From Tridacna crocea (Eukaryota; Mollusca; Bivalvia; Cardiida; Cardiidae): a stretch of 64,000 nucleotides of DNA. The notes beneath the pieces were generated by a model. It was not told the origin of the DNA, did no database searches, and was given only the letters and a program-made list of their open reading frames with translations. A program made the position numbers and the translations under genes. Shown piece after piece: positions 1,076 through 61,235 of this stretch. Location of the stretch: assembly GCA_943736015.1 (NCBI GenBank), contig OX031061.1, positions 14,579,290 through 14,643,289 on the forward strand. Direction: 5' to 3'. Each line of letters begins with the position of its first letter. The first letter of the stretch is position 1.

Positions 1076-1309
1076 TTAACCCTTTACCACACAGCAGAAT
1101 CATAGACCTATCCAAACCGAAAGCATTTGCAGACGATAATTTCATAGTGGCTCAAATGATTCAATTTAATTTTTCTTTGAAAGAGAAGAAAACTTTGTGG
1201 GAAAAGGAGAAAATGCTGGTTACCAGCATTTTCTCCTTTTCCCACAAAGTTTTCAAAAGGCCTCCTCCCCAGAGTCGATAAAAGTCGTCATTGTATGGTA
1301 AAAGGTTAA
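1076..1309 (+). mobile_element. TTAA palindromic MITE, family A
   Basis: Family A reference copy. It is flanked by TTAA on both sides, with ends CCCTTTACCA and a slightly degraded GGTAAAAGG. The left half carries GCATTTGCAGACGA; the right half carries a diverged form of the family motif CTTCTTTCTCAGGGTCG. At 1196-1245 is a near-perfect palindrome, arms GGAGAAAATGCTGG / CCAGCATTTTCTCC extended by GTGGGAAAA / TTTTCCCAC. There is no coding capacity. TTAA duplication with short inverted termini fits a non-autonomous piggyBac- or Kolobok-like element; the autonomous partner is not in the window. Strand + here means GCATTTGCAGACG is at the left. Confidence 0.8.
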
Positions 1310-1546
1310 ATCAGAGGTGTGAAACATTGAGTTTTCATCCACGACTTACCTGCAATAATCTTTGCTAAAATCAATGCCACTGTACTGCACTGGCAGACTG
1401 ACTTTCCGGATGGCCCTCGGACTTTTCCTGAAATAAACACGGACGTCATATATACTATCTTATGACACAGATATACAGACAGACAAAAACTCGTAAAGGG
1501 TTCCTGTGTGGTGCCGTGGTAAGGTGTAAGATTCGTGAAAATTTGG

Positions 1547-1889
1547 TTAAGGTAAGACCTGTGTAATGCACTTCCGGTGAACATTGGGCAAAAATTCTAA
1601 TTGGTTGTTAAATAAGGATAAATAAGGATTTATGCCGGAATAATATTCTTGCACATTTCTAAAGGATCAGAAATTCCGTTTATGTCTATCTTGAAACTTT
1701 TTTTTTTTGATACTTTTGTTTGTTTTCTAAAAAGGGAGGTAATTATTATCTCTTTTTTCAATTGAGAATAACTGGAAAAAATGAAAAGGTGAAACTAGTT
1801 CAATAATACTCATTTTTAGTTATAGCTAATTTTGCAGGATGATATTTTAGTGGAAATAGCTGTTTTCCATTACACAGGTGATACCTTAA
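1547..1889 (+). mobile_element. TTAA MITE, family E
   Basis: Terminal inverted repeats GGTAAGACCTGTGTAATG at the left and CATTACACAGGTGATACC at the right (the latter with two substitutions), flanked on both sides by TTAA. The interior is non-coding and AT-rich. Related copies are at 22388, 26828 and, more diverged, 22756 and 23387. Confidence 0.75.
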
Positions 1890-1959
1890 GCCAATCAGAA
1901 GTTTCGTTACTTTCAAATTCAGAAAATTCTTTGTGGTATAAAAAGAATATCCTAAAGAA

Positions 1960-2158
1960 CAGTCCTCGAATACTAAACTTGGAGGCCCTGGTTCCAGCCT
2001 CTCTGGATCCAGTTAATTTTTCGAGGCAGTGTCCTTGGGCAAAGCACTTCTGAGACCTAGCCTAGTACTGATAAAACCATGAATATTTGAGCTGTCGCCC
2101 TGATATGACTGAAATAATGTTTACAGCGGCGTGAAACATCATTCAACCAATCAAATAT
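1960..2158 (+). mobile_element. 5'-truncated tRNA-derived SINE
   Basis: Contains a B-box-like GGTTCCAGCCTC followed by TGTCCTTGGGCAAAGCACTT and a tail ATGACTGAAATAATG...CATTCAACCAA. The same order is seen in the fuller copy at 47584-47778. The A-box half is missing or unrecognisable. Confidence 0.5.
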
Positions 2159-2169
2159 AAAATCTCAGC

Positions 2170-2361
2170 GTCCGTATTCACCAACCACTCTTGACCATTC
2201 TTTGTTTTATTGTCAAACAGTTTAGAAACTTGAAAGTAACACAACTTATGATTGGCTAAACCAATGGTTTAGGCAATCAGAAGTTGTGTTACTTTAGAAT
2301 TCAGAAGTTTCTAGAAAATAAAACTAAGACCGTTCATAAGAATTGTAGGTGAATACGGACC
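2170..2361. mobile_element. Hairpin MITE, family H
   Basis: Terminal inverted repeat GTCCGTATTCACCAA / GAATACGGAC. The centre is a long imperfect hairpin in which a TGATTGGCTAAACC arm is followed by its complement, then matching AGTAACACAA / TTGTGTTACT arms. Family members recur at 28492, 32904 and 46500. Confidence 0.6.
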
Positions 2362-2461
2362 CAGGGCAGAAATTCACTAGCTATCTTTAAATCTTAACAT
2401 GCTAAATAAGTGAAATGTTGGTACTTCAATTAAATTTGGGGCATGAGTATCTTCTTAAAGG

Positions 2462-2530
2462 TCAGTGTAGACCCGAGATCAGACTGCACGTTCTATGCAG
2501 TCTGATTTTGATCCACACTGTCCGCAAAAA
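2462..2530. repeat. Family F palindrome (isolated)
   Basis: Core hairpin GATCAGACTGCA / TGCAGTCTGAT within CAGTGTAGA...CCACACTGTCCGC. It matches the centre of the TTAA family F elements at 17298-17520 and 57847-59772; the outer parts are not recognisable here. Confidence 0.5.
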
Positions 2531-2579
2531 GCCCTTGAGTTGCGCTCAGCAACTTTTAGGGTCGTAACATTCTTCGTCT

Positions 2580-2690
2580 TGTACTCAAGGGTTTTCTAAA
2601 TTTGAAAGTTACACAATTTTTTATTGGCTAAACCGAATAGTTTAGCCAATCACAAATTGTGTTCCTTTATATGTGTAACATAAGAGGAGT
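2580..2690. repeat. Family H hairpin fragment
   Basis: TTATTGGCTAAACCGAATAG followed by its near complement TTTAGCCAATCACAA; terminal motifs have decayed. Confidence 0.45.
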
Positions 2691-3117
2691 AATGAAAATT
2701 TTGATGGTGCTTGAGTCCAGCTCCTAAGCCCCGTTTCACTAAGGTTCTCGTAGTTACAAACAAAATTTGCGTAAGTTTTACGTAACTATAGTATAGTTGC
2801 ATTAATCTGCTACGAGGTACCTGATAACTATCATTGAATATTTTTGAAAACTATTCCGGAAAATTAAAGTGGTCCCGCAAATTTTACCTAAAAGCTAAAT
2901 TTCCTAGGAACTTTGATTTATCGCAATATTTTTCTAAAATAATGGTGACAAGCTATGTCGTATCTCGTCACGGTTTAATGTCACTATACCATAGTTGCGT
3001 AAAACTGTGTTCGTTATTCCTTGGTGAAACGGGGCCCTGGCGTTTAGTATTTCGATTCTAACTAAAGTTTGTTAGCTATAAGAACCTCTATATCTGAAAA
3101 TTTCCCGCGATGCACGC

Positions 3118-3183
3118 ATAACAATACGACGACGACGTCGATGATGATGATGATGATGACGATGATGATAATGATGGTGGTAA
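3118..3183 (+). repeat. GAC/GAT trinucleotide tract
   Basis: Interrupted run of GAC, GAT and AAT triplets, typical of microsatellite expansion. No open gene structure surrounds it. Confidence 0.8.
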
Positions 3184-4106
3184 TATCGTCGACGATAATG
3201 ACGAAACTACCCCCTCGTAAATAATGTATTTCCGAATACAATTAGAAAATTATTTAAAGCACGCTTACCTTCTTTCCGGGTATGGGTACACGTTTGGTTT
3301 CAAATCATATAAATGATGAGTTCTTTCAAGCATTGTTAGCCACCATAACTTTGAACTTTCTTCATTTTCAAATTAGGCTAGTTCTAGATATGCAACTTCT
3401 TTTATTTTTCAGGAAAAAAGTTACGTTATTTCTAAAGCATCGACGTCAAATTTGACGTTCAAACACAATGTTGGCAAGTATACAAAGTGACGTCATGAAA
3501 CACGCGTCAGGATTCCTACTTTCAAAATAACGTGTGGCCAACGTTTCAACTGAAAGTCAGAGAGTAAATTCGTCTTTCATTGGTTAGCTGCTAAAAAAAA
3601 CTTATGACGTTACCGACAGACATTACAAAGAGGCTTTATGAAGTCAAATTCCAAACGAAGACACCATATTGGAAGTTATGTAGGTTTGTAAACGGTCTGG
3701 CTAGTAGATCTATACCAACATAGATCTATTTAAAATACATTCCTTCCTAGCTTTAAGTACAGCAGAAATGAAATTGTTTTTCCGTATCTTGCATATTTTT
3801 CGGTATCATTAATAGGCTTACATGCACTTTATGTGGAACAATGTTGTGTTCATGACTCCTTGTACATGGGCTAAGGCCTATTCTTGTCTTCCTCTTCACA
3901 ATTGAAAAAAAAAAGAAAAGAAATTATTCATGTAGATATCTATTCTAAATTCAAAGGGTATAAGGTAAAAATGGCATTTTTAGACCTTTAAGTATATAAC
4001 TATAAAAAGCATTCAAATATCTTTTAAATTTGCAGGCAGTACAAATTTCATTTGAGTACGAATTTGTTATGGTACGCTTATAGCCGAACATTTCTGATTT
4101 CAATGT

Positions 4107-4138
4107 GTGCACCCCGTATCGTTCTTTTCATATCCGGT
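4107..4138 (+). promoter_or_regulatory. RPS19: Candidate RPS19 TOP start and leader exon
   Basis: A pyrimidine tract (TTCTTTTC) is followed about 15 bases later by a good donor, AAC|GTGAGT. Ribosomal protein genes in animals usually start transcription at a C within such a tract and have a very short leader exon spliced to the ATG exon, here 1.3 kb downstream. The coding exon starts with ATG directly after its acceptor, so a separate leader exon must exist, but this placement is inference. A second tract, GTCTTTCCG near 4155, is an alternative. Confidence 0.25.
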
Positions 4139-5158
4139 AAACGTGAGTGAAGTTGTCTTTCCGTTATCAGCCTTATGTGTAATCAAAATAAAGCACCTCC
4201 CGGGCAGATCTGAAAGAGTAACAGGCTTCTAAACAAACAAAAATAAATCTGTTCTCATAAATAAAACCACACAATAAAGATTTACAATTTATTACGAATA
4301 AAAAAGTGTTTCTTGAGTAAACCGGAAGCTGGAATTGCTATGTAAAATTTGGTGGGTGGGGAATACACGAATATAAATTTCAACAGATACAAAGAAGTTA
4401 TTCTGTTGCACAGGCAAAGAAATGTAAAGATGAAGCTTATATGACCCTGCATGTGCCCCTAGTCCAGTAAAGCAACGAAAAGATAATGTACTTCTTCTTA
4501 ATATACAGTTGTATAGCGTACATTTCGATCAGGAGTGCTCCACAGTATGAAGGAGTCAACCAAAATCCTGGTACAGGTCTAATGAGAAAATAACCCTGAA
4601 TGAGAAAGAAGCCTCATAAAATTGTTATTGCTAAAGGAGAAAATGCTAGTAACAAGTGCTTCTATTTCTACAACATAATGTACCCTATCTTTGAAAAAAG
4701 GCATCATTGATTTATATTGAAATTCTTGTCCGCAAAAGAGAGTACATTTTTGTTTACATGTTGTGTGGTAGAGAGTTAAACCACACTTTATTTGCTGTTT
4801 GATGGCTACAAGTGTAAAATTTTGATCTTCTTGTTTGGTTACCAGCATCTCCTTTTCCCTCAATATTTTTAAAAGCTTCTGTTTCAGGGTAATTTAAATG
4901 CAGGATTATGTGGTTAAGGGTTGAAGCACCAATCAAGCATGAAAGAAAGGACACAAGCATTTTTGTATGCCCGAAGGGTCTATCATGTGGCCCAGGTCAT
5001 CCGTCCCTCCATCTGTCCATCAATTGGCAATTTCTTGTGTACGCAACTCCTGCTACTGCTTCCATTGAAATAACTTAGAACTTACCTCAATGAATCTCTT
5101 TTATGTATAGTTGGGTATGTGACTCTTAAAATTTGGATCACTGTAGGCATTCTAGATT

Positions 5159-5384
5159 TTAACCCTTTCCCAAACGACAAATTTTGGACTCTTCCAAACC
5201 AAAAGAGTTTGCAGACGAGTTTTAGATTTGAGAAAATGGCAGAAAGTTCTCAAAAAGGGTAGAAAACACTGTGGGAAAAGGAGAAATTGCTCGTTATGAG
5301 CTATTTCTCCTTTCCCCACAGTGTTTTCAAAAGAATTTTACTGCAGACACATAAAAAACCAGGGCTTGTTTGGGAAAGGGTTAA
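5159..5384 (+). mobile_element. TTAA palindromic MITE, family D
   Basis: TTAA flanks, ends CCCTTTCCCAAACG and GGGAAAGGG. The centre has AGAAATTGCTCG / GAGCTATTTCT arms, and outer arms CACTGTGGG / CCACAGTG pair exactly although they differ from the family A arms. The right end lies 69 bp upstream of the RPS19 start exon. Confidence 0.75.
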
Positions 5385-5453
5385 GCTATTTCACTGACAA
5401 GCCCTTTTGGGCACATATGCATTATTCTGCAAAGCTTTTCTTCCTATTTTCAG

Positions 5454-5521
5454 ATGGGTGTGTCTGTGAAGGACGTTGACGCCTTTGAATTCAACAGGGC
5501 CTTTGCTGCCTTCTTGAAAAA
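5454..5521 (+). CDS. RPS19: RPS19 coding exon 1 (start)
   Basis: Residues 1-22 plus two bases of codon 23. Acceptor TATTTTCAG immediately precedes the ATG; donor AA|GTAAGT. The frame is fixed by VSVKDV and AFAAFLKK. Confidence 0.93.
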
Positions 5522-8500
5522 GTAAGTAAAAACTGAATTGTCTTGCCCTTTACAAACAGTCAATGTCTATAACAGAACTGAAGAAGGAACTTTTCACTGA
5601 GTTGTGGTAAAAGGAGAAAAAAATGGTATTCCAATACCAGCAAGCATTTATCATTGCCGAGAGTTAATAGTCTTTACTTAGGTGTATTTGTTAATTTTTC
5701 ACTAATGACAAAATTTTCACTTGACCAAATTGTAAGCATTTGCATATTGTCAGTTTACTTCCTAAAGCTCGTAACTCCAGCTTGTTTGAAGCTGTAGTGA
5801 AGATGTTTTTGAAATAAACTGACGATATGTCGAATGTTGCTAAAATGTTGTTCTCATTCTTTAACTCTTTACCAAACAACAAAATTGTAGACTGGTCCAA
5901 ATTAAAAGCATTTGCAGATGACAAAATAAAGGTAACTGAAAAATAGAAATTTGTTCTGGGAAGGGTACAAAACACTGTGGGAAAAGGAGAAAATGCTGGT
6001 TACCAGCATTTTCTCCTTTTCCCACAGTGTTTTCAAAAGGCTTCTTTCTCAGGGGCATCAAAAGTAGGGATTGTGTGGTAATGGGTTAATAGAGTATAAG
6101 ACAATTTCTAGTCTCTATGAAACTGGCTTCTCCCAGGCCTCTGCCAACCCTCAGAAAATGGGGAGAAGTGACTTCTCCCTAGTCTGAGAATGGGGAGAAG
6201 TTTTTCAAAATGGAGAGAAGTGGTCAGACTTTGGGGAGAAGTTCAGACGGACATCAAAAAATAGATGTGGGCCGAAATATAGAGGGAATTCACAACACCT
6301 TAACAATATAACAAATTAATAAAATTGAAAATCATGTGAATCTAAATGGAATAAAATTATTTTATGCTTTTTATCTTTTTCATGATCAGTATACATACTT
6401 ATTCCTTTTGGAAAACAAAATGTATTTATTCATAGTTTGCTAAATTCACCTACATGTACCTTTAGGATTAAAATATTATGGAAAGAAATGATAATGGAAA
6501 GAGAAAGCAGTGCTAGTTTGAGTATTAAATAGTTTCTCATGGCACATTTTTCTTTTCAAAATCTTCTAAACACTAGACTATTTGTTTCCAAGGCCCTGAA
6601 TATAGTTTTTTGCTAAAAATCATTCTCATTACCAATTTTAACATACATTATAATATAAATGTAACATATACCTATCAAATTGACAGCATTTGCAGCAGGC
6701 AAATACCGGTAGATAACCGCTCAAAGGCTGTAACTAATGTGAAAAAAATATAGTCTGTCAAATGTAGAAAAGCTTACTTCCAGCATTTTCTCATATTGCC
6801 ACGATGTTTTCACCTTTCTATTGGTAAGTTAGACGCAGTTTCAGAGTGCGAGAGACATCGAAAATATAGCTGTCTGATTACCGTTTGTCTTTGATTAATA
6901 TCTAAATAAAACCATCGTTCAACAACGAACACATAATTTACTATCAAAGCCTTGTAGATCGGCGGTTCGCGGCCCGATCAAGGAAATACTATAAATCAAC
7001 GGAATACTTAAATCTATCTAGAACCAAAGACAATAACATTTTTTTTTTTAATTTTATCTTTTAGTTAGCGTCATAGAATATATGCGATTTTATCCGAGCG
7101 CTGTTGCGGTGACGAGCCACCATTTTGAAGTTGAATCATGAGACTTCGCTTAAATACTATATTGGCGCCAAATTATAGTCACATGATTTGAATATATAGT
7201 GCTACATGATCTAGGAGATGATCTAAGTACGTCATAACCTCTAAATATCTGTTCGTTTGGAAAACTGCGAGTAATAACAAATTTTAAAGGATGGGGTAAA
7301 TGGTGATAAGCAAGTAGGTACCGATTCCATCGTTTTCAAAACTGGAATATTTCAATCCATGTAAAACTTTGGAAATTAAAGTTGACGACGAAAGACTGAT
7401 ATCCGGGGTAGGACTTTTCACTTCCATATAGTTACTAAATTTAGCAAACCGTGTTTCAAAAATAGAGGTCTGACAAACACCGATAGGCGGCGTTGATATT
7501 TGTCAATAATAGGGGATTATCCCATAGTGTCATAAAGTTAATTAACAATGACTTGTCAATCTGACTCTCGGTATGTTGTAAACTAATTAAACTCGCTGAT
7601 TGGGCAGTTACTGTAAATCGGGTACGGCACACGCTGATTTGGTAGATTAGACACAGGACGCTTTGTCAATATACGCGAGGCGACTTCCCGATTTTTTCAG
7701 GCGACTTGGACTTTGCTTTACTTGGCGAAATGAGCGAAGTTTTTTTAAATCAGGCGACTTCTTCGCCCAAGTCGCCCACTCGGCCGAGGCCTGTTCTCCT
7801 AGGTCCTGATATTTGTAGCAGGAATTGTTTTTAATTTTACACTCCGTCATTGTGTGTACTTGACAGGTCAGGAAAGATGAAAGTTCCAGAATGGACAGAC
7901 CTTGTGAAACTCGACAGATACAAGGAACTTTCACCCTATGATCCAGATTGGTTCTACCATAGAGCTGGTAAGTGTAGCTTGTACTTACTATACTCATCCA
8001 AAAGGGGTTGGATATACATATGATCAGAGTTCTGCCGAGGGCGCACCATTGCGGGATTTGGGCTAAAATTTTACAGATGCACCCAAAAAATATGAGCCAT
8101 GCAACGCAGGTACGAAGATTAGTTACTAGGGACAAATTCACCGAAAGTCGGTTTTGTTCGAATCAATTTCACTGCCGTGTTTTCCCCAAAGTTGTTTTAA
8201 GGATCGAAACGGCAATTCTGATTGGCTTAGTACTTAATGAAAGGTTGGTTCCCCAAATTTTGAGCCAACGAGTTTCATTTTCACAAGTAAACAGATAACG
8301 GTTTCGTTTTTCGTTCTGCATCAAATGATTGCTGTTCTTGATAAACTCTGATTGCCAAAAAGAAGATTTGTAAATCTAAACTAAGCTATTTTGGTCAATT
8401 AAAGCCAAAAGAGGCTAAGACATATAGCAAGCCCAAGCCCTCTGGGCAACCCGAAACGCTGAAGTGTGATACTTCTCAGTGTATGAAGCACTAATTTTTC

Positions 8501-11500
8501 TTAGTGTATGAAGCACTAATTTTTCTTTGACCCTTGAAGCGCAGGAAATTCTTTGTAAATAAGAATCAATAAAACAGATAACTGCTAAATTATCATACAA
8601 AATGTTTGATTTTTATTTGGTATTCTGTCTCTAGGCTATAATTGTATTCAATTTATGTCCAAACTTCAGTCATGACCCCATATTGTAAAAAGATGGCTCC
8701 ACTTTCTGGGCTTGGATGGGCCATTGGCCCCAAAAGGTAAAAAGCTTGGCAGAACTGTATGATGTACTGTTCCAAGCAAGTTATCACTTTGTTCCCCATT
8801 AAAAATCTTTGACCAATAACCAACTGAACTATGAAGTACAACGGTCCATTGAATGATGGACATGTAGAAAAGAAATGTAAAGAGAAAGGTTTCTACACAG
8901 ATCAGCCAGTGAATATTGTACAGACTGATCTGGGTTGATACTTTTCAAATAGTTGCATTAAACATCCTTTTCACCTAAAATAGAGGAAGCTAACTCTTTA
9001 CTCCAAATATACTCATTTCTACGCATTGCTTGTAGGAGCCTTTGAAAAACATTGTGGCAAAAGGAGAAATTGCGTGTGACGAGCAATTTCACCATTTGTC
9101 ACAATGTTTTCTATGCTATCAGAAGGCGTCATATACTTATAAGAAAGGGTTTCATCTATGCTGTTATTTTGGGTCATTTAGAGATAGCATAGAAATGCCT
9201 TATTGCCTTATGGGGTAAAGGGTTAAGTACTTTGGAAAACATTTTGGTTTGTAGTTGAAAGGAAAAAATAAATGGTTGAAGGATATGTTACATTTGTTTC
9301 CTTTCATGCTTTGTCTTTATAGCAAGCTGTTTCAGAAAATCGTAAGTGAATACCATTTGGACACTTAATCTTTTACTACACAATCTTGACTTCTGTAGAC
9401 CCTGAAAAAAGATGGGTTTTAAGCACCTTATGGGAAAAGGAGAAAATGCTGGAAACCAGCATTTTCTCCTTTTCACATAATGTTTTCTACTCATTCAGGT
9501 TCAAATTTAACCATTTGAAACCACATTTTATTTGTTGTCTGCAAATACCTTCAATTTGGACCAGTTGTAAAATTTTGTCATTTGGTATAGGGTTAAACAG
9601 GTGTGGCAAAATTTCTTGTCTGTTTTGGCTGAGAGCAATTCCAAACTTGTTAGAGACTTTATGCTCTTTGAAATGGTATTTAGTCCCTTTACAAACAGTC
9701 ACAACTTTTAATGGCCCTGATGAAGGTTTTGAAAACATTGATGGAACAGGTGAAAATGATAGAAAGCATTATTTTCTCCTTTTCCAACAATGTTTCCTCC
9801 CCTTTCTAGAGCTACAATAGTCAATTGAGCAAAGTTGTCATATGCTAATGGTTTCAATTTGGATAGGTCCAAGATTGTGTCATTTGTTAAAGACTTGACT
9901 CTTTACGACACAATTCTGACCTAGAAAGACCCCAGACAAGAGCCATACCCTTCACCACAAGACGAAATTCAAGACATGTCCAAATTTAGAAAATATTTTT
10001 AGACTAGTCTACACATTAAATGTTAAACACTTGGTATGATTGATCTCAAAAAGGGTTGCAAACATTGCTGGCAAAGGAGAAAATGCTGTGTACCAGCATT
10101 TTAAACATATCCCATAATATTTTTGAAGCCTGCTAAGTGCCACTCACTGGCCTTGTGCAGACATCATAGATCAAGACCTTACTGCACAGAATGTGCAGTC
10201 TGATCTTAGATCCTCATTGTCTGATAAGGAGATATACTTCCACAAAGAAATGCCTTTCAAATGGCAATATTTTGACTTTTACTATCGGCTTGAAAGATTT
10301 GTTATTTTTATTTAGCAGAAAAAAACAATATTTTTCTCGGTCCTTAACCCATTTCCACACAATCCCTACTTTTGACGCCCCTGAGAAAGAAGCTGTTAGA
10401 AAACATGGTGGAAAAAGGAGAAAATGCTGGTAACCAGCATTTTCTCCTTTTCGCACAATGTTTTGTACCTTTCAAAAAACAAATTTCAAATTTTCAGTCA
10501 CTTTCAGTCACTGCAAATGCTTTAGATTTTGACACTCCTTAAATATTGTCATTTGGTAATGAGTTAAAACACCAGATTGTTTGGTGAAGGGTTAGGAAGG
10601 TAGGCATGGTGAAGGGTTAGGAAGGTAGGCAGTAAATATTCAATAACCTTTTACCAGAGATGGAGCAAGTTACATCATTAATATGAAATATATAAAAAAA
10701 ATCATAGTTGGCATATTTACTTCTATTTCAGCCTCTATCTGCAGACACTTGTACATTAGAGCACCTGCTGGTGTTGGAGCTTTCAGAAAGATCTATGGAG
10801 GTCAGTATTTAACCCTTGAGCTAATATGCAAATGTTAAGCAATGATGTCAAAAATGTGGACAAATGGAAATATATGTATTTGATAAAGAGGAAAACATTG
10901 TGGCAAAAGGAGAAATTGTTCATTAAGAACAATTTCTCCTTTTCCCACAATTTTTTCAAAAGCTGTCTAGTGTTTATGCGTCAAAATGAGTATCTGTGAA
11001 GCGCAGTCAAAGAGGCTAAAGAGTCAATACTCTCCTTTTTTTTCTGTTGATCCAGTTTAGGGAATATCAGTAGACATATCTAAATTCTCTCAATCTTGCC
11101 TGTACAGTGTGACATATGGGTAGTTCTGTGTGGTTTTGGTGATTAATTTTAACATTTGCAGTCTATATTGTCCATGTTTTGGGCAAGAAGTTTGTGACCG
11201 TATCAAACAATTAGATTTTGTTTGAGATTTATCTTTTGAGATGGTAATTCAGTCACTTGTATTGTCATTTTAAACCTCTACCCAACTTGTCTGGAGTTTT
11301 AATAATCTTGAGGAAAAGGCGTTTTGGAAACAATGTAGGTAGCAATTTCACTGTTTTTCATCGATGCTTTTTGCCGTATTACAGAGAAATTTTTATCATA
11401 TAAACCTCATTGAAATTGGTGTCTACTATAATTGCTCTCTATTTAGACAAGCGTGAAATGTGGTATGGTCTCCATTTAGACAAGTGGGAAATGTGGTGTA

Positions 11501-13531
11501 GCCTCTTTTTAGACAAGTGGGAAATGTGGTGTGGTCTCTATTTAGACAAGTGGGAAATGTGGTGTGGTCTCTATTTAGACAAGTGGGAAATGTGGTGTGG
11601 TAAAGCATTATGGGAATAAGAACGCTCGCCTCTACGGCTGGCAACTATTGAAAGCATTGCTGAAAAATGGTATGTGGTTGCAAAGTAGAATGTTGTCTTG
11701 TCACAAAAAGTACAATACAGGAGCAGGTGGCAAGTTTGGAACTGTTTATTAGCCCACACATACCAGGCAAGCACTAGTGTGGATTCTAGGAAACAGAATT
11801 GAGAGCAAATAGTATAATTTGCTAAAACATGTTTCTGAAAATCGGTGTGAAATGGATTTTGAAAATAAAGACTTAACTCTTTACGAAATGACAAAATTTT
11901 AGATTCGTCCAAATTGAAAGCTCTTGACTTGCAGACAACAAATTAAACGTAAATCAAGTATTTTAAATTTGTCTCCAACAGGGTAGAAAACATTGTTGGA
12001 AAAGGAGAAAATGCTGGTTACCAGCATTTTCTCCTTTTCCAACAATGTGTTTAAAGGCTTCTATCTCATGGTTGTAAAAACCAGGGATTGTTTGGGAAAA
12101 GATTAAATAAATTTCTCCATCCTTCTTGGTCTTAAAAACCAGGGATTGTTTGGGAAAAAATTACTTAAATTTCTCCATCTTTCTTACTCTTGATTGACAT
12201 TAACTTTGATTGTTTTTTCCTGCTAGGTCGAAAAAGGAATGGATCTGCCCCCAGTCATTTCTGCACTGGAAACCAGTCCATTGCCAGACGCCTGTTGCAG
12301 GCATTAGAAAACCTGAAAATGGTGGAAAAAGATTCCAACGGGTAAGGCAAAAATCACAATCAGATGATTACTAAAAGATCTTTATTTCACTCGCAGGCTG
12401 CCCTCTTTTTCCAATGTAATTTAACCCCCATTACCAAACAGTCGGTACTTTTGACGATCCTGAGAAAGGAGCCTGTGGAAAACATTGTGGAAGGAGGCGG
12501 AAATGCTGGTAACCAGCATTTTCTCCTTTTCCCACAATATCTTTTATCCTTCAAAAAAACAAATTTCAATTTTTGAGTCACTTTTATTACAAACCTAAAA
12601 TTTTGTTATTTGGTAATGAGTTAAGGAGAGAAATCTCATTTCTTGAATAGCAGTGATCTTGCAAAGTGTATTTAAAGTTTTAGCATATGGTAAAGAGAGG
12701 CAATTGTCATTTACAGCTGGTACAATTCCAAGGTTACTTTGGCCATGAAATCTGAGGAATGTTCCTTGCTGAGTCAAATTCTGTATGCGGATTGACGATA
12801 TTCTTTATAAAAGCCGCTACCACACGGCAAAATTTTAGACCTATCCAAATTGAAAGCATTTGCAGACAATGATTTTAAAGTGGCTGAAATGGTGCAATTT
12901 TGCTTTGATAGGGTAGGAAACATTGTGGAAGTAGGAGAAAATGCTGGTTACCAGCATTTTCTCCTTTTCCCAGGATGTTTTCTAAAGGCTTCTTTCTCAG
13001 GGTTGTTAAAATTTGGGATTTTGTGGTAAGGAATTAAAATTGGATTTGTTTCACTGTGCGTTTCGATAAATCGGCATTGGCTTGGAAAGGAGTTTATACT
13101 TAACAAGATTGACTTGAGAAAAGCACTGACTGCTGTGATAATAGCCAAAATATTATGGAAACAATGTTCCTCGTCATACATGCCTTGACAACAGACTGAC
13201 TTCAAAATGCTGAGCTTGAAATTTACTGATTGGTAACCAGATCATATATTATATAAGGACTGTTGTCACAAGTGTGTAGGAACACAGTTGTAGTTTAGGT
13301 TTACAGCTTATATTTCAACCAGCCTCTAAAACTTTGACAGTCAAGAATGTACCACCATGTCAGACTCGTCATGGACAGCTTGAAAAGAAAAATGTCTCGC
13401 AAACAAAAAGGTTAAAACAAATCTTAAGTGCTTTCTGATATATTTTCAGAGGAAGAAAATTGACCAGCCAGGGACGCCGTGACTTGGACAGAATAGCTGC
13501 CCAGATCAGCTCAAAAAAGGCTAAAAAGTAA
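5454..13531 (+). CDS. RPS19: Ribosomal protein S19 (eS19), complete coding span, 5 exons
   Basis: Encodes eukaryotic ribosomal protein eS19, a component of the head of the cytosolic 40S subunit needed for late 18S rRNA maturation (established for the family). Coding exons 5454-5521, 7867-7967, 10732-10800, 12227-12341 and 13450-13531 join in frame to 435 nt, giving 144 residues against 145 in human. The protein begins MGVSVKDVD, then carries [61 protein letters not shown] and [15 protein letters not shown], and ends with the usual lysine-rich tail. All introns are GT-AG. The ATG is the first codon of its exon, so the 5' UTR lies in an upstream exon. Every intron is loaded with MITEs; intron 3 also holds a 0.7-kb hAT-like element. 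It is the first of two host genes here and lies on the same strand as the ATPase. Confidence 0.95.
5861..6089 (+). mobile_element. TTAA MITE, family A, in RPS19 intron 1
   Basis: Full-length, with TTAA on both sides. The centre palindrome (about 5973-6035) is exact and includes outer arms CACTGTGGG / CCCACAGTG, a paired change relative to CATTGTGGG / CCCACAATG. Confidence 0.8.
6090..7866. other. RPS19 intron 1, remainder
   Basis: No exon is supported. At 6125-6250 the motif GGGGAGAAGT and close variants recur several times in both orientations. A decayed MITE remnant (CAGCATTTTCTC near 6780) is present. An antisense open frame overlapping RPS19 exon 2 (7647-8141) has no recognisable protein and is treated as spurious. 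Confidence 0.45.
7867..7967 (+). CDS. RPS19: RPS19 coding exon 2
   Basis: 101 nt, acceptor TTGACAG, donor G|GTAAGT. Encodes [15 protein letters not shown] and [16 protein letters not shown], the aromatic helical core of eS19. Confidence 0.94.
8025..8757 (+). mobile_element. hAT-like non-autonomous element, 733 bp, in RPS19 intron 2
   Basis: Starts CAGAGTTCTGCC and ends GGCAGAACTG; flanked by an exact 6-bp duplication TATGAT (8019-8024 and 8758-8763). A second copy in opposite orientation is at 54455-55160 with its own 6-bp duplication. Contains a 26-bp tandem duplication near 8477-8528 absent from the other copy. No transposase frame. CAG...CTG ends with a 6-bp duplication match the hAT-derived element at 40349, so a hAT-type origin is inferred. 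Confidence 0.75.
8885..8950. repeat. Family G hairpin remnant
   Basis: CAGATCAGCC...ACAGACTGATCTGGG keeps the outer arms of the family G palindrome but has a decayed centre. Confidence 0.35.
8990..9226 (+). mobile_element. TTAA palindromic MITE, family B
   Basis: Left end CTCTTTACTCC with the left TTAA mutated to CTAA; right end TGGGGTAAAGGGTTAA intact. The family B centre is GTGGCAAAAGGAGAAATTGC with pairing arm GCAATTTCACC...TTTGTCAC. Other family B copies are at 23160, 26571, 36734, 40128 and 48921. Confidence 0.75.
9365..9596 (-). mobile_element. TTAA MITE, family A
   Basis: Full length with TTAA at both ends. Arms TTATGGG / CATAA carry a paired change relative to TTGTGGG / CACAA, while the neighbouring base is unpaired. 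Confidence 0.75.
9679..9900 (-). mobile_element. Decayed family A MITE
   Basis: Left end TCCCTTTACAAACAGTC, GGCCCTGATGAAGG and TTTTGAAAACATTGATGG are recognisable. The centre palindrome has degenerated (AAAATGATAGAAAGCATTAT). Confidence 0.5.
9948..10135 (+). mobile_element. Truncated family A MITE
   Basis: Internal left-half motifs (CATGTCCAAATTTAG) and the centre AAAATGCTGTGTACCAGCATTTT are present; right end eroded. Confidence 0.5.
10135..10343. mobile_element. Family F element, partial
   Basis: Carries TGCTAAGTGCCACTCACTGG, the central ACTGCACAGAATGTGCAGT hairpin and TGTCTGATAAGGAGATATA. It ends where the next family A MITE begins at a shared TTAA. Confidence 0.5.
10344..10567 (-). mobile_element. 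TTAA MITE, family A
   Basis: TTAA at both ends; exact centre AAAATGCTGGTAACCAGCATTTT; right half ends ATTGTCATTTGGTAATGAG. Ends about 165 bp before RPS19 exon 3. Confidence 0.75.
10732..10800 (+). CDS. RPS19: RPS19 coding exon 3
   Basis: 69 nt, acceptor TTCTATTTCAG, donor GGAG|GTCAGT. Encodes [20 protein letters not shown], the conserved basic segment of eS19. Confidence 0.94.
10809..11025 (-). mobile_element. Family C TTAA MITE, degraded
   Basis: Starts TTAACCCTTGAGC nine bases after the RPS19 exon 3 donor. The centre has ATTGTTC / GAACAAT arms, a paired variant of ATTGCTC / GAGCAAT. Right-half GCGTCAAAATGAGTATCTG matches family C at 28864 in reverse. Confidence 0.6.
11030..11433. other. 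RPS19 intron 3 sequence without recognised features
   Basis: AT-rich unique-looking DNA; no exon, paired repeat or mobile-element end was recognised. Confidence 0.5.
11437..11601 (+). repeat. 33-bp tandem repeat, 5 copies
   Basis: Five head-to-tail units of 33 bp, unit beginning CTCTATTTAGACAAGTGGGA and ending TGTGGTGTGGT; the last two are identical and the first is most diverged. Because 33 is a multiple of three, an open frame with repeated LDKWEMWCG runs through it, but nothing around it supports translation. It lies inside RPS19 intron 3. Confidence 0.85.
11874..12106 (+). mobile_element. TTAA MITE, family A
   Basis: TTAA at both ends. The centre palindrome 11991-12047 is exact, with CATTGTTGG / CCAACAATG arms, a paired change from CATTGTGGG / CCCACAATG. 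Right end AACCAGGGATTGTTTGGGAA. Confidence 0.8.
12073..12188 (+). repeat. Tandem duplication of a MITE right end
   Basis: A block of about 57 bp beginning AAAAACCAGGGATTGTTTGG and continuing into ATTTCTCCATCCTTCTT occurs twice in direct order, the second copy slightly diverged. It sits about 40 bp before RPS19 exon 4. Confidence 0.65.
12227..12341 (+). CDS. RPS19: RPS19 coding exon 4
   Basis: 115 nt, acceptor TTTTTTCCTGCTAG, donor CGG|GTAAGG. Encodes [30 protein letters not shown]; matches the eS19 segment that contacts rRNA in the family. Confidence 0.94.
12421..12624 (-). mobile_element. TTAA MITE, family A, shortened
   Basis: TTAA at both ends. The left arm reads GGAAGGAGGCGGAAATGCTGG, so the palindrome is partly broken; the right half has lost about 20 bp. 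Confidence 0.7.
12810..13036 (+). mobile_element. TTAA MITE, family A
   Basis: Left TTAA lost; CTACCACACGGCAAAATTTT start and a right end GTGGTAAGGAATTAA are present. Centre AAAATGCTGGTTACCAGCATTTT is exact. Confidence 0.7.
13450..13531 (+). CDS. RPS19: RPS19 coding exon 5 and stop
   Basis: 82 nt including TAA at 13529-13531; acceptor TATTTTCAG. Encodes [19 protein letters not shown] and the tail SSKKAKK. Confidence 0.94.
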
Positions 13532-13544
13532 CATGTGATCTGTA

Positions 13545-13550
13545 AATAAA
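13545..13550 (+). promoter_or_regulatory. RPS19: RPS19 polyadenylation signal
   Basis: AATAAA 14 bases after the stop codon, predicting a 3' UTR of only a few tens of bases, as is usual for ribosomal protein mRNAs. Confidence 0.75.
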
Positions 13551-13622
13551 AGAAAAAAATTGAATGGACAGCCAAGTATCTTGTTGTTAATCCTTTACTA
13601 GGAAGACTTGTCTCAAAAGCCT

Positions 13623-13846: not shown

Positions 13847-13854
13847 AGGGAAAG

Positions 13855-15960: not shown

Positions 15961-15965
15961 GCAGA

Positions 15966-19188: not shown

Positions 19189-19345
19189 GGCAACACGCGA
19201 AAAGGGGCATTCAAACTTTTGCGTAAAGTGCCGTCTCGGATTAGCCTGCGCAGTCCGCGCAGGCTAATCCGAGACGACACTTTACGACTACAATTTAGAC
19301 TTCGACACTTTCGTAAATGTCCGAATGCCCCTTTTGGCGTGTTGC
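19189..19345. mobile_element. 157-bp MITE with 66-bp central palindrome
   Basis: Terminal inverted repeats of about 23 bp (GCAACACGCGAAAAGGGGCA and its partner AGCATGCC-like end GAATGCCCCTTTTGGCGTG). The centre 19222-19287 is an almost perfect palindrome, arms CGTAAAGTG...GGATTAGCCTGCGCAG. The whole unit is fold-back DNA without coding capacity. Confidence 0.75.
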
Positions 19346-20185: not shown

Positions 20186-20420
20186 TCTGACAAAAGGGGG
20201 CTTATTACATCTCTGTGATCCATGGTACACGGCTAGCCATCTCCAGCTTATAGATCCGTAATATCCACTTTTTGTAACAAACGACTTTATCATGAGGTAC
20301 ACCGGTCCTTGGACATAAAAAAAATTGACCAATGGCGAAACGTTTCGGCCCAGGTCAGCCTGCGCAATCCGCGCAGGCTGACCTGGGCCGATGCTTTTCG
20401 TAGATGCATGGGTCATTTTT
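20186..20420. mobile_element. Family G hairpin element
   Basis: The palindrome 20346-20390 pairs CGGCCCAGGTCAGCCTGCGC with GCGCAGGCTGACCTGGGCCG around a 5-base loop. The left flank includes ACGACTTTATCATGAGG. Same family at 34940-35100 and 48645-48735. Confidence 0.6.
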
Positions 20421-21814: not shown

Positions 21815-21979
21815 AGCTTCTAAGCACGACTCGCTGACCTTTTGCGTACAGCGCAGATCAAGATCAGACTGCACAGAACGTGCAGTCTGATCTTGGATCT
21901 GCTCTGTCCGATAAGAAGATATATTTCCTCCTAAAAATTGATTAAGATTCTTTTGAAATAATGGGTTTTTCCTATCAGC
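21815..21979. mobile_element. Family F element, partial
   Basis: AAGCACGACTCGCTGACC, then the palindrome GATCAAGATCAGACTGCAC / GTGCAGTCTGATCTTGGATC, then TGTCCGATAAGAAGATAT. Interrupted at the right by a family A MITE. Confidence 0.55.
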
Positions 21980-23159: not shown

Positions 23160-23388
23160 TTAACCCTTTACTCCATATATACTCATTTCTAAGCATTGCG
23201 TGTGGGAGCCTTTGGAAAACATTGTGGCAAAAGGTGAAATTGCTCGTGACGAGCAATTTCACCTTTTGTCACAATGTTTTCTATGCTAACAAAAGGTGTC
23301 ATATACACATAAGAAATAGCTTCACCCTTGCTGTTATCTAAGGTCAATTAGAGATACCATAGAAATGTCCTGTGGGGTGAAGGGTGAA
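23160..23388 (+). mobile_element. TTAA MITE, family B
   Basis: CCCTTTACTCCATATATACTC left end; centre GGTGAAATTGCTCGTGACGAG with an exact second arm. Right end GTGGGGTGAAGGGTGAA lost its TTAA. Wedged between family E relatives. Confidence 0.78.
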
Positions 23389-26570: not shown

Positions 26571-26799
26571 TTAACCCTTTACTCCATAGATACTCATTTC
26601 TACGCATTGCTTGTAGGAGCCTTTGGAAAACATTGTGGCAAAAGGTGAAATTGCTCGTCACGAGCAATTTCACCTTTTGCCACAATATTTTCTATGCTAT
26701 CAAAAGGTGTCATATACACATAAAAAGTGGCTTCATCCTTGCTGTTATTTAGGGTCAATTAGAGATACCATAGAAATGCCTTATGGGGTAAAGGGTTAA
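26571..26799 (+). mobile_element. TTAA MITE, family B, reference copy
   Basis: 229 bp with TTAA at both ends, CCCTTTACTCCATAGATACT left and TTATGGGGTAAAGGG right. The centre pairs GTGGCAAAAGGTGAAATTGC with GCAATTTCACCTTTTGCCAC, including the small loop region CTCGTCACGAG. Confidence 0.88.
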
Positions 26800-28491: not shown

Positions 28492-28640
28492 AGATATCCA
28501 TCAACCATTTTTAAGAACATTCTTTGTCTTATTCTCCAAGATTTTGCAGGTTTGAAAGAAACACAGCTTCTGATTGGCTAAACCATTTGGTTTAGCCAAT
28601 CAGAAGTTGTGTTACTCTCAAATGTAGAAAATTTAGATAT
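28492..28640. mobile_element. Family H hairpin element
   Basis: TTCTGATTGGCTAAACCATT directly followed by its complement, flanked by AAACACAG / GTGTTACTCTC. Left terminus CATCAACCATTTTTAAGAAC; right terminus eroded. Confidence 0.6.
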
Positions 28641-32822: not shown

Positions 32823-33325
32823 CTGATTGATTCATTTTGTGGAGTTAAACGCCGTTTTCAACATCATTTCGTTTATAGCGGCCAGGTCACCTTTCCATGC
32901 GATCCAGGGCCCGTATTGACCAAAAATTCTCGCGAATATTCTTAGTCTTATTCTCCAAGGTTTAGTAAATTTGTAAGTAACACAACTTCTGATTGGCTAA
33001 ACCATTCGGTTTAGCCAATCAGAACTTGTGTTACTTACAAATGTAGAAAATTCTGGATATTGAGAGAAAAAACGTTCTTAAGAATGGTTGGTGAATACGG
33101 GCCCTGGAATCTTTTTTGCTAATGTTTCGCACAATTTTCTGTCCAAGGCCACTGCTTACCGTCTCCCACATGATCATCGTCGAAACAATGGTCAGCGGTG
33201 GGAGAGGGTGAATCCTCGGAAAGAATTTGGCCGGGCCAGGGGTCATGACCAGAGATCGAACCCTGGACCCGTGTTTTGAAGTCCTGTACGCTACCGTATG
33301 AGCTGCCAGAGCTCCGTGCTGCGCA
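32823..33325 (-). mobile_element. tRNA-derived SINE with a nested family H element
   Basis: Left tail GGAGTTAAACGCCGTTTTCA and right tRNA-like head; on the minus strand GGCAGCTCATACGGTAGCG and GGGTTCGATCTC are the A- and B-box regions. Interrupted at 32904-33106. Confidence 0.65.
32904..33106. mobile_element. Family H hairpin MITE, complete, nested in a SINE
   Basis: Termini CCAGGGCCCGTATTGACCA / GGTGAATACGGGCCCTGG. Central arms CTTCTGATTGGCTAAACC and complement, then AAGTAACACAA / TTGTGTTACTT. Reference copy for the family. Confidence 0.75.
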
Positions 33326-34939: not shown

Positions 34940-35100
34940 CTAACAATTAACTGAATCATGCGGTAAATTGGTCCTTGAATATTCATGAAAAAAAGAAGGA
35001 CCAATAGCAAAAAGTTTCTACTCAGGTCAGCCTGCGCGGACTGCGCAGGCTGACCTGAGTCGATACTTTTTGCGGATGCATTAAACTCTCGTTGCATAAA
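34940..35100. mobile_element. Family G hairpin element
   Basis: Palindrome 35021-35059 pairs CTCAGGTCAGCCTGCGC with GCGCAGGCTGACCTGAG; flanks TGGTCCTTGAATATTCATG and GCGGATGCATTAAA. Confidence 0.6.
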
Positions 35101-36733: not shown

Positions 36734-36959
36734 TTAACCCTTTACTCCATAGATACTCGTTTCTACGCATTGCTTGTAGGAGCCTTTGGAAAACATTGCG
36801 GCAAAAGGAGAAATTGCTCGTGACGAGCAATTTCACCTTTTGCCACAATGTTTTCTACGCTATCAAAAGGTGTCATATACACATAAAAAACGGCTTTATC
36901 CTTCTTATTTAGGGTCAATTAGAGATACCATAGAAATGCCTTATGGGGTAAAGGGTTAA
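36734..36959 (+). mobile_element. TTAA MITE, family B
   Basis: TTAA at both ends. Centre GAGAAATTGCTCGTGACGAG with CATTGCGGC / GCCACAATG arms (one mismatch). Shares its right TTAA with the next element. Confidence 0.83.
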
Positions 36960-37189: not shown

Positions 37190-37310
37190 GGCTGATCACT
37201 AAGCACGACTCACCTACTTTTTGCGGATAGTGTGGATAAAGATCAGACTGCACAGAACGTGCAGTCTGATCTTTAATCCACACAATCCGATAATGGCATA
37301 GATCTATTTC
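37190..37310. repeat. Family F palindrome with flank
   Basis: GATCAGACTGCAC / GTGCAGTCTGATC within GTGTGGATAAA / TTAATCCACAC; the outer arms also pair, with variant bases on both sides. Confidence 0.6.
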
Positions 37311-38090: not shown

Positions 38091-56745
<18,655 letters not shown>

Positions 56746-57846: not shown

Positions 57847-58007
57847 TTAACCCTTAGGCTGCTAGGCGCGACTCGCTGACCTTTTGCGGACAGTGAAGAT
57901 CAAGATCAGACTGCACAGAACGTGCAGTCTGATCTTGGATCTACACTGTCCGATTAGGAGATAGATCTTCAAAAGATAACTTTGAAATAGTGATATTTGG
58001 GTTTTTA

Positions 58008-59720
58008 TACGCCCGTCAAAGACGGGACGTATTATGGGATCACCCGTGCCGGGCGGGCGGGCGGGCTGGTGGGCGGCGTCCAGTTCTTTGTCCGGAGCAT
58101 ATCTCCAAAACTATACAAGCTAGGGTTATGAAATTTCATGGGTGGATAGATCTCATCGAGGGGGAGTGCAGTGCACAGGAATCATAACTCTTGCTCGCTT
58201 AACTTTTGAGTTATTGCCCTTTGTTGTTTTTCATACTTGAATTTTGTCCGGAGAATATCTCCAAAATTATACTACCTAGGGTTATGAAATTTCATGGGTG
58301 GATAGATCTCATTGAGGGGGAGTGCAGTGCACAGGAATCATAACTCTTGCTAGCTTAATTTTTGAGTTATTGCCCTTTGTTGTTTTTCATACTTGAATTT
58401 TGTCCGAAGCATATCTCCAAATTTATACTAGCTAGGGTTATGAAATTTCATGGGTGGATAGATCTCATTGAGGGGGAGTGCAGTGCACAGGAATCATAAC
58501 TCTTGCTCGTTTAATTTTTGAGTTACTGCCCTTTGTTGTTTTTCATACTTGAATTTTGTCCGGAGCATATCTCCAAAACTATACTAGCTAGGGTTATGAA
58601 ATTTTATGGGTGGATAGATCTCATCGAGGGAGAGTGCAGTGCACAAGAATCATAACTCTTGCTCACTTAATTTTTGAGTTAATGCCCTTTGCCGTTTTTT
58701 TATACTTGAATTTTGTCTGCTGAATATCTCCAGAACTATACGAGCTAGGGTTATGAAATTTCATGGGTGGATAGATCTCATCGAGGGGGAGTGCAGTGCA
58801 CAGGAATCATAACTCTTGCTTGCTTAACTTTTGAGTTATTGCCCTTTGTTGTTTTTCATACTTGAATTTTGTCCGGAGCATATCTCCAAAATTATACCAC
58901 TTAGGGTTATGAAATTTCATGGGTGGATAGATCTCATTGAGGGGGAGTGCAGTGCACAGGAATCATAACTCTTGCTCGCTTTATTTTTGAGTTATTGCCC
59001 TTTGTTATTTTTCATACTTGAATTTTGTCCGAAGCATATCTCCAAAACTATACTAGCTAGAGTTATGAAATTTCATGGGTGGATAGATCTCATTGAGGGG
59101 GAGTGCAGTGCCTAGGAATCATAACTCTTGCTTGTTTAATTTTTGAGTTATTGCCCTTTGTTGTTTTTCATACTTGAATTTTGTCTGGAGCATATCTCCA
59201 AAACTATACTAGCTAGGGTTATGAAATTTTATGGGTGGATAGATCTCATCGAGGGAGAGTGCAGTGCACAAGAATCATAACTCTTGCTCACTTAATTTTT
59301 AAGTTATTGCCCTTTGCCGTTTTTTATACTTGAATTTTGTCCGCTGAATATCTCCAGAACTATACGAGCTAGGGTTATGAAATTTCATGGCTGGATAGAT
59401 CTCACCGAGGGGGAGTGCAGTGCACAGGAATCATAACTCTTGCTTGCTTAATTTTTGAGTTATTGCCCTTTGTTGTTTTTCATACTTGAATTTTGTCCGG
59501 ATCATATCTCCAAAACTATACTAGCTAGGGTTATGAAATTTCATGGGTGGATAGATCTCATTGAGGGGGAGTGTAGTGCACAGGAATCACAACTCTTGCT
59601 TGCTTAATTTTTGAGTTATTGCCCTTTGTTGTTTTTCATACTTGAATTTTGTCCGGTGCATACCCCAGCTTTACAACTTGGGGTAAGACGGGCGTATCTT
59701 GCGACAATTTGCCGCTCTTG
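58008..59720. mobile_element. Transposon-like unit bounded by TACGCCCGTC / GACGGGCGTA
   Basis: Left end TACGCCCGTCAAAGACGGGA, then a GGGCGGGC run; right portion AAGACGGGCGTATCTTGCG...GCCGCTCTTG. Flanked by TTA at 58005-58007 and 59721-59723 within the split family F element. Its body is the 156-bp tandem array. No coding frame; class undetermined. Confidence 0.65.
58090..59650 (+). repeat. 156-bp tandem array, 10 units, four-unit higher-order period
   Basis: Unit starts at 58090, 58246, 58402, 58558, 58715, 58871, 59027, 59183, 59339 and 59495, each beginning GTCC/GTCT then GGAGCATATCTCC or a variant and containing GGGTTATGAAATTTCATGGG and GGAGTGCAGTGCACAGGAAT. Units 2-5 match units 6-9 one for one in diagnostic variants, giving a 625-bp higher-order repeat. 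Confidence 0.92.
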
Positions 59721-59772
59721 TTAGTATTGAATTAAAAAATTTGTTTTAGTTATTTAGTAGGATAAGGGTTAA

Positions 59773-60177
59773 AGGTTAGTAAAAGTTTAGATTTATCTGA
59801 TCTAAAACCATCTTCAGATGACAAATGAAATAAAGTTTAAATGCAGGAAATTGCATGTGATAGGTTAGAAAATGTAAGAAAAGAAAAAAAGGCCCTAATT
59901 TCTAGGGTCGACAGATGGCAGGATTGTTTGAACAGTATATACCATGTTTAACATGAGGTAAAAAGCCTGATCAGCAATTTAGTGAAGTATAACCCCAAAA
60001 CAAAAGCATAGAAAATATCTTTTATTGTATAATGGTACAATGCATTATATTTATTGTCATGGTTGCCATGTTACTCTTCACTCTTTACCAGAATCAAGAA
60101 TTTTATCTTGTCTATAGTCTATACCAAAAGTGTTCATTATGATAGGGCACCTTAATGGGATTGCTGTAACATTGTCT
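59773..60177. other. ATPase intron 8, no recognised feature
   Basis: AT-rich; a faint MITE-like stretch (GATCTAAAACCATCTTCAGA) near 59800 is too decayed to classify. Confidence 0.3.
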
Positions 60178-60398
60178 TTAACCCATTACCACACAATCCC
60201 TACTTTTGACGCCCTTGAGAAAGAGGCCTTTAGAAAACATTGTGGGAAAATGCTGGTAACCAGCATTTTCTCCTTTTCCCACAATGTTGTCTACCCTTCA
60301 CAAAACAAATTTCAAATTTTCAATCACTTTTATTTTGTCGTCTGCAAATGCTTTCGATTTGGACTTGCCTATAATATTGTCGTTTTGAAATGAGTTAA
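60178..60398 (-). mobile_element. TTAA MITE, family A, part of one arm deleted
   Basis: TTAA at both ends. The left arm reads GTGGGAAAATGCTGG, lacking AGGAGAAA, while the right arm CCAGCATTTTCTCC is complete. Confidence 0.8.
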
Positions 60399-60569
60399 AG
60401 AAGACTGTACACATTTGGAGGATAGACAATGCTTAGATTACGGATTGTAAGCCAAAACCATACAATTTTGATGATGAAAGGCGATGTTACAAATTCCCAT
60501 TTAGGTACCCTATCTTTAGAGGTCACAAAAGTAGTGGCCTCAATTATAAGATATGACTGTGAGAGGGCA

Positions 60570-60675
60570 TTAAGGATTGTGGGAAAAGGAGAAAATATTC
60601 ACCAGAATTTTCTCATTTGCAATAACACTATGTCAGGGTCTTAGGAAAAACATTATTTTTCTGGTAAAGAGTTAA
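60570..60675 (-). mobile_element. Family A fragment
   Basis: GGATTGTGGGAAAAGGAGAA, decayed centre, TGGTAAAGAGTTAA end. Confidence 0.45.
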
Positions 60676-60796
60676 TTTTGTATGATATTCAGTTAAAAAG
60701 CACCCATTTTTATCCAATCATTTTATTCTGAGTGGGAAGAACGAAGTTAATTTTAAATTTGAACTTATGTCTTTCATGAATATTCATCATAACCAT

Positions 60797-61010
60797 TTAA
60801 CCTTTTGCCATTTTACAAAGTTTTTGACTGGACAAAGTTGAAAGCCTAACAATGTTGAAAGTAAGACAAAAACTGAAATTCCTTGATGAATGAGAAACAT
60901 AGGAAAAGCAGAAAGTGCTGGTTACCAGCATTTTCTGCTTTTCCAACTTGGTTTTCAAAACTCCTCTCCTAAGGATGGTCAAAAGTCTGGATTTTGTGGT
61001 AAAGGGTTAA
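60797..61010 (+). mobile_element. TTAA MITE, family A
   Basis: TTAA at both ends. Arms GGAAAAGCAGAAA / TTTCTGCTTTTCC carry a paired G-to-C change relative to the consensus. Shares its right TTAA with the next copy. Confidence 0.8.
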
Positions 61011-61235
61011 CCCTTTCCCAAACAATCCCTGGTTTTTACGGGTCTGGAATAGTAGCCTTTTGAAAACATTGTGGGAAAAGGAGAAAATGCTGGTAACCAG
61101 CATTTTCTCCTTTTCCCACAATGTTTTCTACCCTATCATAGACAGAAATCATCTTTTCAGCAAGAGTTGAATTGTCGTCTGCAAATGCTTTCAATTTGGT
61201 CTAGTCCAAAAGTTTGTCGTTTGGGAAAGGGTTAA
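61007..61235 (-). mobile_element. TTAA MITE, family A
   Basis: TTAA at both ends; exact centre. Near-twin of 51592-51821. Confidence 0.88.

Follow-up and report, generated by a model that had tools for sequence, protein, structure and literature searches.

Template-switch mutation associated with quasipalindromes has reportedly been studied in E. coli. A yeast report describes such mutation at quasipalindromes in reversion assays (PMC3820800). Template switching has been invoked for the creation and maintenance of RNA-gene hairpins, with a rare loop inversion read as the mark of an interstrand route (PMC8794818), and another report describes template switching between inverted-repeat arms of Saccharomyces cerevisiae, with arm homogenization, spacer inversion and recurrence, in 39 protein-coding genes of yeast strains placed on a tree (PMC8604942). 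Here we analyze a 64,000-nucleotide stretch of Tridacna crocea DNA (assembly GCA_943736015.1, contig OX031061.1, positions 14,579,290 to 14,643,289; hereafter the window), which carries many copies of a short, TTAA-ended repeat with a central palindrome, and show that across the genome (1.05 Gb searched, 31 contigs) changes in one arm of this palindrome recur mirrored in the other, in a proportion of copies that is small but clearly not random.

As in the work on RNA genes, compensatory stem changes are explained here by copying one arm from the other, and arm homogenization and recurrence are shared with the S. cerevisiae study. The settings differ. The yeast quasipalindrome work used reversion assays, whereas here the events are read from standing variation among the copies of a very large repeat family in nature, mirrored deletions included; selection also acts on the RNA genes (PMC8794818), whereas we deal with dispersed transposon copies and have internal controls for chance and for founders; and, unlike the genes followed on a tree (PMC8604942), our palindromes are near-identical, are spread over many sites in a single genome and are not placed on a tree of loci. 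Among the open-access matches listed, no paper dealt with arm homogenisation within a high-copy transposon palindrome, which is weak evidence of absence. The mechanism is already known; what is new is the scale and the deletion test.

A palindrome scan of the window yielded dozens of near-perfect palindromes of 67 nt, each consisting of two 33-bp arms and one central base, and each embedded in a larger element whose homology starts and stops sharply near TTAA. This miniature inverted-repeat transposable element (MITE) occupies 229 alignment columns, is non-coding and TTAA-ended, and reads TTAACTCTTTACCAAAC...GGTAAAGGGTTAA, the palindrome corresponding to columns 107-173; k denotes the distance of a pair from the palindrome centre. 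Copies were collected from the window, from twenty 10-kb stretches (contigs C2 and C4) and from seven further loci (an eighth, L001, duplicates the window and was left out), and 177 of the 329 non-overlapping matches kept passed a filter of at least 100 flank and at least 60 arm columns; 58 of these are near-full copies in the window. The k=26 variant of the window copy at 5861-6089 is carried by all six members of the 177 that had been selected for their similarity to that copy; the other 171 are referred to as the unbiased set.

For the three changes tested genome-wide, the partner arm is matched more often than by chance, and this clear excess is specific to partner positions. Exact counts were made, on either strand, of defined changes in an otherwise perfect T-centred 57-mer, and the expected number of pairs was calculated for arms that change independently, left-only counts standing in for right-only ones in the controls as well. 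The G:C to C:G change at k=14 was found paired 12 times and left-only 131 times, where 0.50 pairs were expected (24-fold excess), and shortening of AAAA to AAA at k=16-19 was found in both arms 13 times and left-only 138 times, against an expectation of 0.56 (23-fold). For G:C to T:A at k=22, the counts were 331 paired and 1,234 left-only, with 44.7 pairs expected. When the same changes were combined at positions that are not partners, the left k=22 change with the right deletion occurred 15 times against 5.0 expected (3-fold), and the left k=14 change with the right deletion once against 0.53 (1.9-fold). Since both controls exceed expectation, mixed copy ages appear to inflate double changes by about two- to three-fold; the inflation is about 2.6 when two of the three copies of one small clade (L143, L149 and L153) are left out. 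If a three-fold inflation is assumed, the k=14 and deletion excesses have P values of 7e-8 and 3e-8, respectively; these become 1e-5 and 6e-6 at 4.9-fold, the upper 95% Poisson limit for 15. Because P stays small, the paired excess belongs to partner positions. As a separate observation, left-only counts for G to T at k=22 exceed those for G to C at k=14 about nine-fold, which may reflect a hotspot or an old polymorphism of the source.

In order to characterize the flanks, we fetched all 12 copies with the k=14 pair, all 13 with the paired deletion, 48 of the 331 with the k=22 pair and all 16 non-partner doubles, together with left-only copies (20 of 131 for k=14 and 20 of 1,234 for k=22) and 20 of the 34,027 consensus copies; the partially fetched classes were taken from the first entries in genome order and so come mostly from contigs C1-C4. 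Copies with at least 100 flank columns were usable, namely 10, 12 and 45 in the three paired classes, 20 and 19 left-only copies, 20 consensus copies and 16 doubles. The mean nearest-neighbour flank distance was 0.194 for k=14 pairs, 0.215 for the paired deletion and 0.165 for k=22 pairs, compared to 0.165, 0.157 and 0.129 in size-matched random control sets. Clustering of paired copies beyond random was thus absent from the flanks in all three classes, the deletion and k=22 copies being more spread than the controls, and visual inspection placed the paired copies in several of the main flank types. This scatter over flank subfamilies indicates that the paired changes arose repeatedly, and the paired deletion is itself a mirrored indel that recurs in scattered copies.

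As a proxy for age, we used the divergence of each copy's flanks from those of a panel of randomly chosen copies. Median values were 0.110 for consensus copies, 0.157 and 0.153 for the left-only classes and 0.141 for non-partner doubles, while those for paired copies were 0.150 (k=14), 0.188 (deletion) and 0.182 (k=22). When pooled, the paired classes are more diverged than left-only copies (P=0.006, one-sided), consensus copies (P=0.003) and non-partner doubles (P=0.02); left-only and consensus copies compare at P=0.11.

The best explanation, and in our judgment a probable one, is that quasipalindrome-associated template switching copies one arm onto the other after insertion, while the markers that define subfamilies were inherited from founders. 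After insertion, each arm would mutate at a pace similar to that of the flanks. A polymerase crossing the palindrome would occasionally switch template, with the nascent strand folding back or jumping to the other strand, and one arm would then be copied from the other, so that a change is erased or mirrored, substitutions and small indels alike. The excess, its specificity for partner positions, the mirrored deletion and the scatter across subfamilies are shown by the data, whereas we infer that the copying takes place in situ after insertion, that template switching during replication causes it, and the rate at which it proceeds. If the mirrored share is taken as the pairs minus three times the chance expectation, divided by twice the left-only count, approximately 4.0% of one-arm changes are mirrored at k=14, 4.1% for the deletion and 8% at k=22. 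In a rough model with correction rate c, in which half of the corrections mirror the change, the paired share equals ct/4, so that ct would be 0.16-0.32. With t at roughly 0.04-0.08 substitutions per site, as estimated from half of the flank distances and from 16 one-change and eight zero-change copies, c would be roughly 2-8 times the base substitution rate, and a fifth to half of the pairs would be mismatched at equilibrium. Such a mismatch level suggests that the process alone is too slow to account for perfect source elements, and that constraint on the sources or a bias in their success is needed in addition.

Paired stem changes are usually taken as proof of structural selection; here they arise repeatedly, deletions and transversions included, and the approximately 4-8% of one-arm changes that appear mirrored at the three tested sites provide a measured baseline. 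The family could allow the rate, direction and tract length of template switching, as well as inversion of the centre, to be measured in a natural germline, and we know of no other source of comparable scale. A more far-reaching version, which we find doubtful, would have every one of several hundred thousand palindromes record germline template switching, with this process and not selection having written the subfamily-defining pairs, and with part of it following an interstrand route that turns the centre.

Several results weigh against arm-to-arm copying, or restrict its reach. The genome-wide expectations are built on left-only counts, right-only ones being taken as equal; in the 177-copy sample, with all change types counted, k=14 is altered 15 times on each side, and k=22 is altered 22 times on the left and 21 times on the right. 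In that sample, single-side changes far exceed paired ones, 757 versus 108 (371 left-only, 386 right-only), and in 40 further pairs both sides changed without pairing. When the reference is a local consensus built from the seven copies closest in flank sequence, 63 changes are paired (17 at k=26 and 46 elsewhere) and 38 are double but unpaired. In shifted pairings, about 1.1% of cells are changed on both sides and half of the comparable ones are complementary by chance, giving approximately 31 expected, so that 63 is a modest excess. Taken alone, it suggested that the finding was ordinary, a reading overturned by the genome-wide counts. In addition, k=14 pairs are no more diverged in their flanks than the one-arm classes, and the k=14 and deletion classes together differ from left-only copies at P=0.051. 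Neither a duplicated nor an orthologous locus showing the states before and after copying was found; the sole candidate, window 60797-61010 with L028, which seemingly have outer flanks in common, proved to be neighbouring MITEs. Outer flanks of paired and control copies are often alike on one side, probably through other repeats. Co-copied tracts were also sought, and the four copies with two to three paired changes outside the subfamily sites were too few, three of them being too decayed.

The absence of an age difference at k=14 is also what would be predicted if a real one-arm variant had been mirrored by sequencing or polishing of the assembly, the arms being reverse complements of each other. 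Palindromes are difficult to sequence. However, software mirroring would not give the pooled paired classes more diverged flanks than those of one-arm copies, and ordinary reads should find an anchor in the unique flank, which starts 34 bases from the centre; we therefore hold such an artefact to be very unlikely. Another possibility is that old copies were hit twice by chance, the number of such doubles being raised because copies are of unequal age. In its favour, non-partner doubles are up to 3-fold above independence and many paired changes in the random sample match the shifted-control level, and at a factor of 3 chance could account for about 40% of the k=22 pairs. It does not extend to the 24- and 23-fold excesses at k=14 and for the deletion, when the two controls, one of them a single copy, reach 1.9 and 3, and as a general account it is very improbable. 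Descent from few founders, with a single origin of each paired variant in a source element followed by spread through transposition, suits the subfamily sites k=3, 8, 13, 20 and 26, and small founder clades do exist, as the three related copies among the 16 non-partner doubles attest. For the three tested variants it is unlikely, since their usable paired copies (10, 12 and 45) are distributed across flank subfamilies, unless each had its own unseen source.

Selection for pairing, in which compensatory changes would be favoured by a hairpin RNA or by a role of the palindrome in mobility, was raised by the original prediction as one of two options. Arm distance between copies is indeed about half of the flank distance at every age, with a ratio of 0.38-0.56 across ten distance bins, and in the two youngest clusters (38 and 45 copies, biased ones included) the arms have a lower frequency of non-singleton variants than either flank, by a factor of about three relative to the left and about 1.5-2 relative to the right, so that the sources seem constrained. 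Singletons per site are nevertheless alike in the arms (0.017-0.018), the left flank (0.020-0.022) and the right flank (0.012-0.015), which indicates that copies decay alike after insertion and that conservation lies mostly in the source lineages; the same figures led us to reject lower mutation, or homogenisation between copies, as the cause of the halved arm divergence. Stepwise selection on RNA pairing also explains a mirrored deletion or a G:C to C:G transversion badly, as neither has a wobble intermediate, and mobility cannot maintain scattered single copies. Furthermore, L143, L149 and L153 form one small clade with flank distances of 0.04-0.05, lie on three contigs and have in common a palindrome with two unpaired changes. 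Their outer DNA differs, and they are thus separate insertions that spread an unpaired palindrome to three sites, so that movement neither strictly requires pairing nor always restores it. Selection as the driver of the paired changes is therefore very unlikely and is not supported in each single copy, although constraint on the source elements remains likely, given that variants common to several copies are rarer in arms than in flanks.

The other option of the original prediction, arm-to-arm templated copying, is supported in a restricted form, as a slow process that accounts for a minority of changes. At all seven places that it listed, the described paired letters are present, and its remark that some copies have unpaired changes holds, with six unpaired pairs at 52618-52831, four at 60797-61010 and four at 38837-39056. 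The differences between subfamilies are paired as described (GTGGG/GTGGC and AAAATGCTGG/AAATTGCTCG, at k=20, 8 and 3), with an additional one at k=13. Several pairs were wrongly called private: CACTGTGGG/CCCACAGTG (k=26) occurs in 18 of the 171 unbiased copies and in 24 of all 177, and TTGTTGG/CCAACAA (k=22) has 331 genome occurrences in the exact 57-mer context. Of 1,889 readable pairs in the 58 window copies, 226 are unpaired and 45 differ from the consensus but remain paired; subfamily sites (k=3 (C:G), 8, 13, 20 and 26) account for 31 of these 45, and 14 lie elsewhere. A paired excess beyond shared ancestry exists genome-wide at partner positions, but most of the differences listed are inherited subfamily markers, founder elements being the origin of the paired differences that are fixed between subfamilies.

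The palindrome centre was analyzed after orientation by the flanks. In the unbiased set, the central base is T in 142 copies, A in 14, C in 12 and G in one. The GGTTACC and GGTAACC centres had been considered as a sign of frequent inversion, and they mostly reflect orientation, since T is found in 142 of the 171 flank-oriented copies. That A is far commoner than G is compatible with occasional inversion. In element orientation, an A centre was found in 7 of 25 copies of the k=14 and deletion classes versus 5 of 76 controls (P=0.009). Against a link between copying and inversion, only 2 of 48 k=22 copies have an A centre, and the pooled paired classes give P=0.27. As a post hoc guess, near-centre changes could be mirrored when a short stretch is copied from the opposite strand. 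Palindrome-bearing window copies are collected in Table 1.

Table 1. Palindrome-bearing copies in the window, with the state of their arms
Feature	Coordinates	Strand	Basis
MITE copy, palindrome 5968-6034, common k=26 C:G variant (CACTGTGGG/CCCACAGTG)	5861..6089	+	TTAA homology edges, arms
MITE copy, k=26 C:G variant (CACTGTGGG/CCCACAGTG), 33/33 pairs intact	55585..55813	-	arms
MITE copy, paired k=22 T:A (TTGTTGG/CCAACAA), two unpaired pairs	11873..12105	+	arms, genome count
MITE copy, paired k=14 C:G (GCAG/CTGC), four unpaired pairs	60797..61010	+	arms, genome count
MITE copy, paired k=24 T:A (CATTTTGGG/CCCAAAATG), six unpaired pairs	52618..52831	-	arms
MITE copy, paired k=2 T:A (CTGTT/AACAG), four unpaired pairs	38837..39056	-	arms
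MITE copy, paired k=27 T:A (ACTTTG/CAAAGT), zero unpaired pairs	1076..1309	+	arms
Subfamily-B-like palindrome, TTGTTC/GAACAA, two mismatched pairs; outside the 58 near-full copies	10891..10957	.	arms
Subfamily B copy, paired k=3, 8, 13, 20; one unpaired pair	23160..23386	-	arms
Subfamily B copy, paired k=3, 8, 13, 20; one unpaired pair	26571..26798	-	arms
Subfamily B copy, paired k=3, 8, 20; two unpaired pairs	36734..36958	-	arms
Consensus (subfamily A) copy, TTAA at both ends, 33 intact pairs	62579..62807	+	arms
Consensus copy adjoining 60797-61010, TTAA 61007-61010 common to both	61007..61235	-	arms

The family is probably present in hundreds of thousands of copies. The consensus 57-mer (T-centred, either strand) has an exact genome-wide count of 34,027, and 8 of the 171 unbiased copies have arms that are fully consensus to k=28 (56 bases). 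Extrapolation gives approximately 0.7 million copies at this quality, with a wide error, as 8 is a small number. TTAA is retained at both ends in 66 of the 171 copies and at one or both ends in 115.

MITEs of the piggyBac type are short and non-coding, with TTAA at both ends and CYCTTTACC termini, and a TTAA target is also used by Kolobok elements. The repeats described here resemble the former in all of these features, and their TTAA target and CCCTTTA ends suggest that they are probably a non-autonomous, TTAA-inserting miniature transposon of the piggyBac type. The genome contains 118 matches to PF13843, many with open frames. One of them lies in a putative 2.77-kb piggyBac-family element (L159:568-3333) with a 624-codon open frame and ends TTAACCCTTTATATAC, which have 11 bases in common with the MITE 3' end, the remainder being different. 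This element seems to be nested in a MITE copy with ends at 475 and 3462. In the neighbourhoods of three of the 118 matches, no autonomous element with identical full ends or with the palindrome was found. A comparison to Rfam gave no match in the window at gathering thresholds.

Adjoining MITE copies with one TTAA in common, in opposite or the same orientation, were observed in the window at 61007-61010 and 51592-51595, and at L020 9759-9762. Palindromes with an extra partial arm, which resemble rearrangements, occur at L028 5511-5683 and in its neighbours, with a second AGGAGAAAATGCTGG block, and a 58-bp tandem unit that includes half a palindrome (window 63137-63252) looks like a rearrangement at the palindrome. 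Other recurring palindromes in the window, of the TGCGCAGTCC and GATCAGACTGCAC types, lie at 19222-19286, 20345-20391 and 35007-35073, with shorter ones of these families at 21859-21895, 37237-37275 and 57901-57937; a further family, AACACAACTTCTGATTGGCTAAACC..GGTTTAGCCAATCAGAAGTTGTGTT, is found at 2233-2295, 28551-28622 and 32969-33042. The window also carries a tandem array of ten copies of a 156-bp unit (58087-59662), with 91% matches.

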